IMG/VR virus record: IMGVR_UViG_3300046002_005293 | Span: 1 to 20,266 of that record | From: a virus | Length of the DNA: 20,266 nt | Reading direction: 5' to 3' (one strand) | Shown: in pieces, positions 11,074 through 14,437 of the stretch | Position numbering within the stretch: the first letter of the stretch is position 1 | Layout: every line of letters starts with the position of its first letter | Translations under genes and position numbers: made by a program | Notes under the pieces: model-generated | What the model was told of the DNA's origin: nothing | The model's database searches: none | What the model saw: only the letters and a program-made list of their open reading frames with translations

Positions 11074-11145
11074 GTGACTGTAGTGTAGTGGTCTGCACAT
11101 TGCTCTGTGAAAGCGATAGTATGGGATCGTTCCCCATCAGTCACC
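11074..11145 (+). tRNA. tRNA-His (GUG), CCA not encoded
   Basis: Acceptor GTGACTG (11074-11080)/CAGTCAC (11138-11144), C73 as in bacterial His tRNA, anticodon arm TTGCT-CTGTGAA-AGCGA. The next bases are CCT, so the terminal A must be added by the CCA enzyme. The -1 base is T, not G, so G-1 is not templated. T-loop ATCGTTC (A54, T58). Flanks CTTAGG/CCTAAG (11067-11072/11146-11151) extend the acceptor helix by six pairs. Confidence 0.88.
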
Positions 11146-11199
11146 CCTAAGTTATTTGCGATATGGGATTTTCCCCACTTCGCCCCAAAATTGTTTTAT

Positions 11200-11318: not shown

Positions 11319-11397
11319 GCGTGGTGAGCTAGTCTGGTGATTTCAGCGTATCCCTGAAGAGGATAAGAACTAGGTTCGATTCCTAGACCACGCACCA
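11319..11397 (+). tRNA. tRNA-Phe (GAA)
   Basis: Acceptor GCGTGGT/ACCACGC, anticodon arm TATCC-CTGAAGA-GGATA, T-arm CTAGG-TTCGATT-CCTAG, discriminator A, CCA encoded. The D-loop is long (about 14 nt between GCT and AGC), making the gene 79 nt. Confidence 0.9.
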
Positions 11398-11403
11398 AAT
11401 ATG

Positions 11404-11442
11404 CAACCGTTGAAGTTGGTTCGATTCCACGAGGCAGCACCA
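11404..11442 (+). pseudogene. tRNA 3'-half remnant
   Basis: Directly after tRNA-Phe, a fragment ends in a T-loop GGTTCGATTCC and a 3' acceptor strand AGGCAGC-A-CCA. No matching 5' strand (GCTGCCT) lies upstream, and the T-stem is imperfect. It is the 3' end of a tRNA left by deletion or recombination, next to the minus-strand gene. Confidence 0.7.
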
Positions 11443-11444
11443 GG

Positions 11445-13518: not shown

Positions 13519-13989
13519 ATGTTAAAGGTAGATGTTCGAGAGGTTGAAGAATTTATGAGCCGGCAAGGCCCTAATACTCGAGTCTACTTGGGTGCCGACA
13601 GCGAGCGGTTCAAGGTCAACGGCGTCTGGTGGGCTGAATACACAGTGGCTGTGGTTATCCACATCAACGGTCGCAATGGTTGCAAGATCTTTGGAGAAAC
13701 TTCCAAGGAACGTGACTACGATCAAAAGTACAATCGTCCCAGCATGCGGCTCATGAACGAGGTGTACCGGGTTAGCGAAATGTTCCAGCGGCTGCAGGAG
13801 GTACTAAAAGATCGAGAGGTCGAGGTGCACTTGGATATTAATCCTAGCGAAATGCACGGATCCAGCTGTGTAGTGCAGCAGGCAATTGGGTACATACGTG
13901 GCACTTGCAACGTGATCCCCATGGTCAAACCAGATGCTTTCGCTGCCAGTTACGCAGCAGATAGGCTAAAGAGCTTGCTGGCTGCTTGA
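13519..13989 (+). CDS. YkuK/DUF458 family RNase H-like protein
   Basis: 156 aa. ATG 13519 is taken because AGGA (13509-13512) precedes it and longer frames run back through tRNA-Arg and tRNA-Ser. 'RVYLGADSERF' (21-31) with D27, 'VHLDINPSEMHGSS' (103-116) with D106, and 'KPDAFAASYAADR' (137-149) with D148 match the acidic residues of the RNase H-like YkuK family. Members are probable nucleases of unknown substrate, found in Bacillus and in large phages. Its place directly after tRNA-Arg and before a tRNA promoter makes tRNA or RNA processing attractive but unproven. The stop TGA lies in the next promoter's -35. Confidence 0.8.
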   Translation: MLKVDVREVEEFMSRQGPNTRVYLGADSERFKVNGVWWAEYTVAVVIHINGRNGCKIFGETSKERDYDQKYNRPSMRLMNEVYRVSEMFQRLQEVLKDREVEVHLDINPSEMHGSSCVVQQAIGYIRGTCNVIPMVKPDAFAASYAADRLKSLLAA

Positions 13990-14014
13990 CATCTAATAAC
14001 AGTTGTGCTATAAT
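13986..14014 (+). promoter_or_regulatory. sigma70-type promoter P11 (tRNA-Gly operon)
   Basis: Perfect TTGACA (13986-13991) and TATAAT (14009-14014), 17-bp spacer, extended -10 TGC. The preceding gene's TGA is inside the -35. The start would be about 6 nt before the outer tRNA-Gly remnant. Confidence 0.9.
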
Positions 14015-14026
14015 ACATGAATGTAT

Positions 14027-14165
14027 GCGGGGTTCGTATAGTGGAATCAAAAGCACAGCAAGCAGGCGTAACTCAGTGGTAGAGTGTCAGCCTTCCAAGC
14101 TGTTCGTCGCAGGTTCGATCCCTGTCGCCTGCTTGGTGTGCTTTCGATTCTCCTACCCCGCTCCA
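14027..14165 (+). pseudogene. T4-type tRNA-Gly split by an inserted tRNA (outer tRNA)
   Basis: The 5' part GCGGGGT-TCGTATAGTGGAAT and the 3' part TTCGATTCTCCT-ACCCCGC-T-CCA look like the two ends of a T4-like tRNA-Gly: acceptor GCGGGGT (14027-14033)/ACCCCGC (14155-14161), U73, CCA. The D-stem 3' strand, the anticodon arm and the T-stem 5' strand are gone. In their place sits a complete tRNA-Gly(UCC) on a long helix. Confidence 0.75.
14062..14133 (+). tRNA. tRNA-Gly (UCC), nested inside another tRNA-Gly, no CCA
   Basis: Acceptor GCAGGCG (14062-14068)/CGCCTGC (14126-14132), D-arm ACTC/GAGT, anticodon arm TCAGC-CTTCCAA-GCTGT, T-loop TTCGATC, U73. The bases after are TGG, so CCA must be added. 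Flanks extend the acceptor helix by twelve pair positions (14050-14061 with 14133-14144) with one G/G mismatch, and five more pairs (14044-14048/14146-14150) follow after an A/C mismatch. Confidence 0.9.
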
Positions 14166-14191: not shown

Positions 14192-14437
14192 ATGAATGTA
14201 ACCCTTAGTCGTGGTACTGGTATTAACACTGAAAAATGCGTGGAAAATGCCGGAGGGAATCGATACAATTTGGTGTTGATTGCTTGCCACCGTGCTCGAG
14301 ACATTGAACGGCATAACATCCAGCGCCAGAAGCAGGCTTACGAGAACCCAATTGTGAGTGCCTTGTTGGACGTGCAAAACGGTGCAGTCGGCGAAGAGTA
14401 TCTCAAGCGAATTAGGACGCCTAACAGGCGGGTATGA
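14192..14437 (+). CDS. rpoZ: RNA polymerase omega subunit (RpoZ)-like protein
   Basis: 81 aa. Residues 16-40 ('CVENAGGNRYNLVLIACHRA' then 'RDIER') match the signature of bacterial omega ('VxxxGNRFDLVLVAxRRAR'). Residues 52-74 ('ENPIVSALLDVQNGAVGEEY') match the following 'xTVIALREIxxG' segment. The length equals a minimal omega, with a basic Arg-rich tail. Omega binds the beta-prime C-terminus and aids RNAP assembly and ppGpp response; a phage copy could replace host omega to alter promoter choice (inference). ATG 14192 is 6 nt after CGAGG (14181-14185). The last ten bases with TGA stop are shared with tRNA-Gly(GCC). Confidence 0.82.
   Translation: MNVTLSRGTGINTEKCVENAGGNRYNLVLIACHRARDIERHNIQRQKQAYENPIVSALLDVQNGAVGEEYLKRIRTPNRRV

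Follow-up and report, generated by a model that had tools for sequence, protein, structure and literature searches.

In the 20,266-base phage fragment analysed here (an IMG/VR virus record with 28 tRNA genes, taken at full length and hereafter the window), the middle of a resident tRNA-Gly(UCC) gene is replaced by a second, complete tRNA-Gly(UCC) mounted on a long helix of leader and trailer, or rod. The reading that we favor, with a probability of roughly 0.6, is that this rod-mounted tRNA took the place of the resident one through recombination and matures by being processed out of the rod. Comparison with related phages shows well that the nesting is genuine and that it originated by replacement within a resident tRNA gene, and the inner tRNA is probably functional.

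The locus lies on the plus strand and opens with a sigma-70-type promoter at 13986–14014 (TTGACA-17-TATAAT with an extended −10; 12/12 matches with the TG). The 5′ end of the outer tRNA-Gly(UCC) (GCGGGGTTCGTATAGTGG, 14027–14044) consists of the GCGGGGT acceptor strand and the D-arm as far as GTGG, and its 3′ end (TTCGATTCTCCTACCCCGCTCCA, 14143–14165) comprises the TTCGATT T-loop, the 3′ strand of the T-stem, ACCCCGC, U73 and CCA. Between these ends lie the left arm of the rod, which is the leader of the inner tRNA (AATCAAAAGCACAGCAA, 14045–14061) and is non-native and absent in relatives, then the inner tRNA (14062–14133), and finally the right arm, made up of U73 and the trailer (TTGGTGTGCTTTCGATT, 14133–14149), of which the last 7 nt are native T-arm. 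An open reading frame resembling RNA polymerase omega (14192–14437, plus strand; Pfam RNA_pol_Rpb6, E 4.6e-5, slightly under the curated cut-off) provides a synteny anchor downstream. This omega (RpoZ/Rpb6)-like frame follows the nested tRNA directly, and by eye similar frames appear after plain tRNA-Gly genes in several other phage contigs, among them L004, L025, L030, L104 and L106.

Five related contigs (L133–L137) were obtained from virus contigs by querying with the downstream omega-like protein and the promoter. Two of them, L136 and L137 (the same contigs as L168 and L170), carry at the same locus the uninterrupted outer tRNA that the first-pass annotation had proposed to seek in relatives: a plain tRNA-Gly(UCC) (GCGGGGTTCGTATAGTGGTAATACCTTAGCCTTCCAAGCTAAAGCTAGGAGTTCGATTCTCCTACCCCGCTCCA) with the same promoter, flanks and downstream gene, to which both outer ends in the window (18 nt and 23 nt) are identical. 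L133–L135 hold a third allele, also a plain tRNA-Gly(UCC), and near-identical uninterrupted versions of the outer tRNA occur in many other phage contigs. The promoter is kept in all five relatives except for one C/T change within the spacer; the nested tRNA does stand first after it, as annotated, but the promoter is that of the locus, driving a plain tRNA in the relatives, rather than the nested tRNA's own. Set against the allele of L136, the window has lost 33 native nt (anticodon arm and variable loop, with the 3′ strand of the D-stem before them and the 5′ T-stem strand after them) and gained 98, so that the recombinational insertion suggested earlier is upheld by the uninterrupted allele in relatives but must be restated as a replacement. 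The outer ends are likewise present as first described, with breakpoints at 14044/14045 and 14142/14143 rather than at 14048 and 14144. Identity of the flanks to the relatives is about 87–91% on either side, and because both flanks match the same relatives up to the breakpoints, the contig is unlikely to be a crude chimera.

What is left of the outer gene does not make a complete cloverleaf, since the anticodon arm and parts of the D- and T-stems are missing, and an Rfam search of the locus returned tRNA only, with the outer tRNA unmatched. On these losses the outer tRNA is judged non-functional, a relic that caps the rod. The nested allele was found in one contig only, none of the related contigs found carrying it, so that drift or an assembly fault keeps a small probability, and no other nested case turned up when all virus contigs were scanned with two gapped patterns. 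The matches that these scans did return were ordinary tRNAs or coding sequence.

The inner tRNA-Gly(UCC) is full length, as first annotated: ARAGORN calls it at 14062–14133, and it matches Rfam RF00005 at 64.9 bits, which passes the family gathering cut-off of 29 and ranks third among the 26 tRNA matches in the window that reach the gathering score. Its anticodon loop, CUUCCAA, is identical to that of the displaced tRNA. CCA is not encoded; U73 is followed by UGG, which pairs with the leader except for one G-G. The 20-kb window has no Gly(UCC) besides the inner tRNA; a Gly(GCC) follows at 14428, and further tRNA-Gly genes may sit beyond the fragment. The nearest bodies are the tRNA-Gly of Tunturi_5, KIL2, PHB09 and several Aeromonas phages, all of them unrelated phages, and in the cases inspected CCA is encoded and a comparable rod is absent. 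Exact patterns for the inner body, with or without the leader, found no copy of the rod-mounted tRNA-Gly in virus records, nor did BLAST against phages and plasmids. Neither the 22 matches to the trailer pattern nor the 21 matches to the leader in genomes fall within a tRNA, and the whole inserted unit is absent from the five relative records.

The extended helix noted at first pass is confirmed, 14045–14061 pairing with 14133–14149 at 15 of 17 positions by Watson-Crick rules, with a G-G and an A-C mismatch. It is continuous with the acceptor stem of the inner tRNA and exceeds chance: the probability of at least 15 of 17 pairs is about 1e-7 from base composition, none of the 1553 distinct tRNAs taken with their flanks from the fetched loci has a leader/trailer extension score above its 37, the highest value, and re-dealt flanks give an expectation of 0.15 genes with a score of at least 30. 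As DNA, the arms form a 30-nt inverted repeat that is 87% complementary. The GAATC/GATTC segment does pair, although most of its left side (AATC) is inserted sequence and its partner is the native T-arm GATTC. The predicted fold of the locus is a single rod tipped by the tRNA (−65.6 kcal/mol, z = −7.0), in agreement with the earlier description, and the predicted pair probabilities along the rod are mostly 0.9–1.0.

Rods of this kind are also present on other phage tRNAs. Whereas none of the 26 CCA-encoding tRNAs in the window has a rod (a count that includes a divergent tRNA-Phe, which we read as CCA-encoding after correct registration of its acceptor), the two tRNAs that do not encode CCA both stand on one, namely the inner tRNA-Gly and a tRNA-His on the plus strand at 11074–11147, which has CCU where CCA is expected (ATACCTTAGG-U / C-CCTAAGTTAT). 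Six distinct phage tRNA-His loci are of the rod type, with 10–11 of 11 pairs formed as against 2–7 in the remaining tRNA-His. Seven of 14 rod pairs are altered on both sides, and covariation is 0.476 compared with 0.189 after shuffling (0/500), a signal that is lost when the partner strand is slid; these counts come from six sequences with kinship ignored. In Aeromonas T4-like phages a tRNA-Asn rod has four pairs altered on both sides, counted over five sequences, again ignoring kinship, and on a tRNA with a CAU anticodon (tRNA-Met) a 14-pair rod is nearly invariant while the tRNA body varies among phages. Over the fetched set, long rods accompany 6 of 48 CCA-less tRNAs against 4 of 1391 in the comparison group (Fisher p = 1.9e-7, kinship ignored). 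The candidate rule that CCA-less tRNAs always stand on rods was rejected, as 42 of the 48 have none; a rod is thus not required for a CCA-less tRNA. As a class, rods are not mere relics on this evidence, since compensatory change maintains them on other phage tRNAs, and the case for a wider class of rod-mounted phage tRNAs is built on two more tRNA families whose rods covary.

Several details of these loci may be recorded here. Rod-type tRNA-His genes were seen in the window, L010, L046, L063, L066, L097 and L166, and mostly have U-1 or C-1 at position −1, where the usual base in tRNA-His is G-1. The relatives L134, L169 and L170 have non-rod tRNA-His, so that rod and non-rod alleles appear to have been exchanged in this phage group. 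The tRNA-Asn rods of Aeromonas phages (L165 135–217, L222–L225 and L227) pair an encoded CCA into the rod in some cases and lack CCA in others, and in Ah1 a different tRNA-Asn body sits on the rod. The CAU-anticodon tRNA on its rod, without CCA, is found in the Aeromonas phages phiWae14, Aeh1, PX29, Ah1 and avDM12-TAAL (L162 236–310 and L218–L221).

For the window we infer a donor in another phage lineage, which would have carried a tRNA-Gly(UCC) on a leader/trailer rod and without an encoded CCA. In a tRNA-rich phage, recombination would have exchanged the central part of the tRNA-Gly(UCC) already there for this unit, leaving the promoter of the locus in place to drive a single rod-shaped transcript tipped by the tRNA. 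The outer ends would now merely lengthen and cap the rod, while the inner tRNA assumes the Gly(UCC) role. This reading also draws on the SegB-like motif in the native T-loop, which the replaced segment adjoins, and on the GIY-YIG homing-endonuclease-like frame at 428–757, both described below. Maturation would most likely begin with RNase III cutting the helix, which at this length is a plausible substrate for the enzyme; RNase P and 3′ exonucleases would then trim the ends, and the host CCA enzyme would add CCA. RNase III was reportedly implicated in T4 tRNA processing by Pragai and Apirion. The inner tRNA might still fail to mature, because RNase P is expected to act poorly on a precursor in which U73 and the bases next to it are paired. 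The processing scaffold proposed at first pass is plausible, given the similar rods elsewhere that have undergone compensatory change. The findings suggest that viral tRNAs can be exchanged as handle-mounted modules. More tentatively, they could point to a class of phage tRNAs in which the rod hides or replaces CCA and maturation starts in the helix with RNase III; rod and tRNA would travel together as a module that can be fitted with a new tip and can invade and supplant a resident tRNA gene.

The strongest rival, which we consider unlikely but far from negligible, is that the locus is a functionless relic of mutation, in which the T-loop was broken, a copy of a tRNA was joined in, and a fold-back or template switch copied one arm from the other, producing the long inverted repeat in a single event. 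A SegB-like endonuclease may have been the breaker, and the rod may be unselected and the locus possibly dead. The structure of the arms speaks for such an origin, since the left arm, taken together with the adjoining acceptor strand, repeats the right in inverted form at 22 of 24 positions (AATC[A/G]AAAGCACA[G/C]CAAGCAGGCG). Its AATC is non-native on the left and complementary to the native T-arm GATT, so the copy includes sequence native to one side only, the mark of a template-switch hairpin. A template-switch or fold-back event would yield inverted arms of this kind; alternatively, the rod was already present in the donor, and the final four pairs arose by chance or by selection. Template switching reportedly builds RNA stems in a single step (PMC8794818), and in yeast, breaks are reported to acquire very short inverted duplications copied from a template (PMC11724301). 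The 3′ breakpoint falls, moreover, at a SegB-like motif. SegB has the cleavage motif RAWTSGAAC (PMC13096335), to which the native allele has an exact match at the T-loop on the minus strand (GAATCGAAC), while the nested allele has none. The motif has 11 sites in the window, all on the minus strand, and T-loops in general look like it, so this match is weak evidence. Against a dead relic stand the fully intact body of the inner tRNA, its place as sole Gly(UCC) in the window, and the compensatory change that keeps rods on other phage tRNAs. The mutational account, besides, explains origin, and is compatible with present use.

An assembly artefact fusing two tRNA genes is very unlikely. The nested allele does come from one metagenomic contig, and tRNA clusters contain short conserved words, but a fusion would take two exact joins, the second leading back into the locus that the first had left, and the flanks on both sides match the same relatives. 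Joining by k-mers is not expected to produce a precise inverted repeat, and the searched virus records contain no tRNA with the inserted arms.

Remoter still is a role as a decoy or stable structured RNA, in which the capped rod would offer the tRNA tip as bait to host tRNA nucleases instead of serving in translation. The precursor cap is unusually stable, and phage tRNAs counter tRNA-cutting defenses according to two reports (PMC13096335; PMC12409363). The anticodon loop is the same as in the displaced tRNA, however, and gives no sign of a changed target.

That the inner tRNA is excised like an intron and the two outer pieces are then joined to make another tRNA, an option raised at first pass, is scarcely credible, since the 33 lost nt include the whole anticodon arm and ligation could rebuild only a 41-nt RNA without an anticodon. 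The outer ends are perfectly kept, CCA included, but this is also expected after a recent event.

Several known systems come near to this locus. The plain tRNA-Gly(UCC) of L136 and L137 shares its promoter, flanks, outer ends, downstream gene and anticodon but has neither inserted tRNA nor rod and retains the 33 native nt. In intron-containing, split and permuted tRNA genes, the exons total a full tRNA. Such genes likewise have two tRNA ends parted by other sequence, whereas the locus in the window, also rejected as an intron-containing or split gene because its outer exons do not sum to a full tRNA, misses the 33 nt and has a tRNA as its spacer. In Aeromonas T4-like phages (Aeh1, PX29, Ah1, phiWae14 and avDM12-TAAL), the rods that carry tRNA-Asn and tRNA-Met resemble the rod in the window in that the helix spans the CCA positions, several lack an encoded CCA, and different tRNA bodies occur on the same rod; unlike it, they are not nested in a tRNA, and their sequences are unrelated. 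A gene inside a gene is also known from the bacterial tRNASec gene nested within selB, where the host is a protein gene rather than a tRNA (PMC8124441). Hairpins made by template switching similarly have a near-perfect inverted copy beside or within an RNA gene, but form the stems of microRNAs and other RNAs, whereas the hairpin in the window bears a transplanted tRNA (PMC8794818). In the open-licence papers searched, neither a tRNA within a tRNA nor a class of phage tRNA precursors with such extended helices of leader and trailer was described.

The locus gives a before-and-after view of a phage exchanging, within a live gene, one tRNA for another with an identical anticodon. With the rods on other tRNAs, it points to phage tRNA precursors whose leader and trailer form long helices as a class of their own, backed by compensatory changes, and it raises the question of how tRNAs whose CCA is paired or missing are matured during infection.

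Two further features of the window concern its tRNA genes. In a tRNA-rich region at 428–757, a small frame resembles GIY-YIG homing endonucleases (phrog_5123, E 4.8e-7), an arrangement that recalls SegB and tRNA arrays. Directly behind the divergent tRNA-Phe (11319–11397, 28.2 bits) lies an orphan tRNA 3′ end (GTTGGTTCGATTCCACGAGGCAGCACCA, 11405–11443), which is likely a further tRNA remnant or exchange point.
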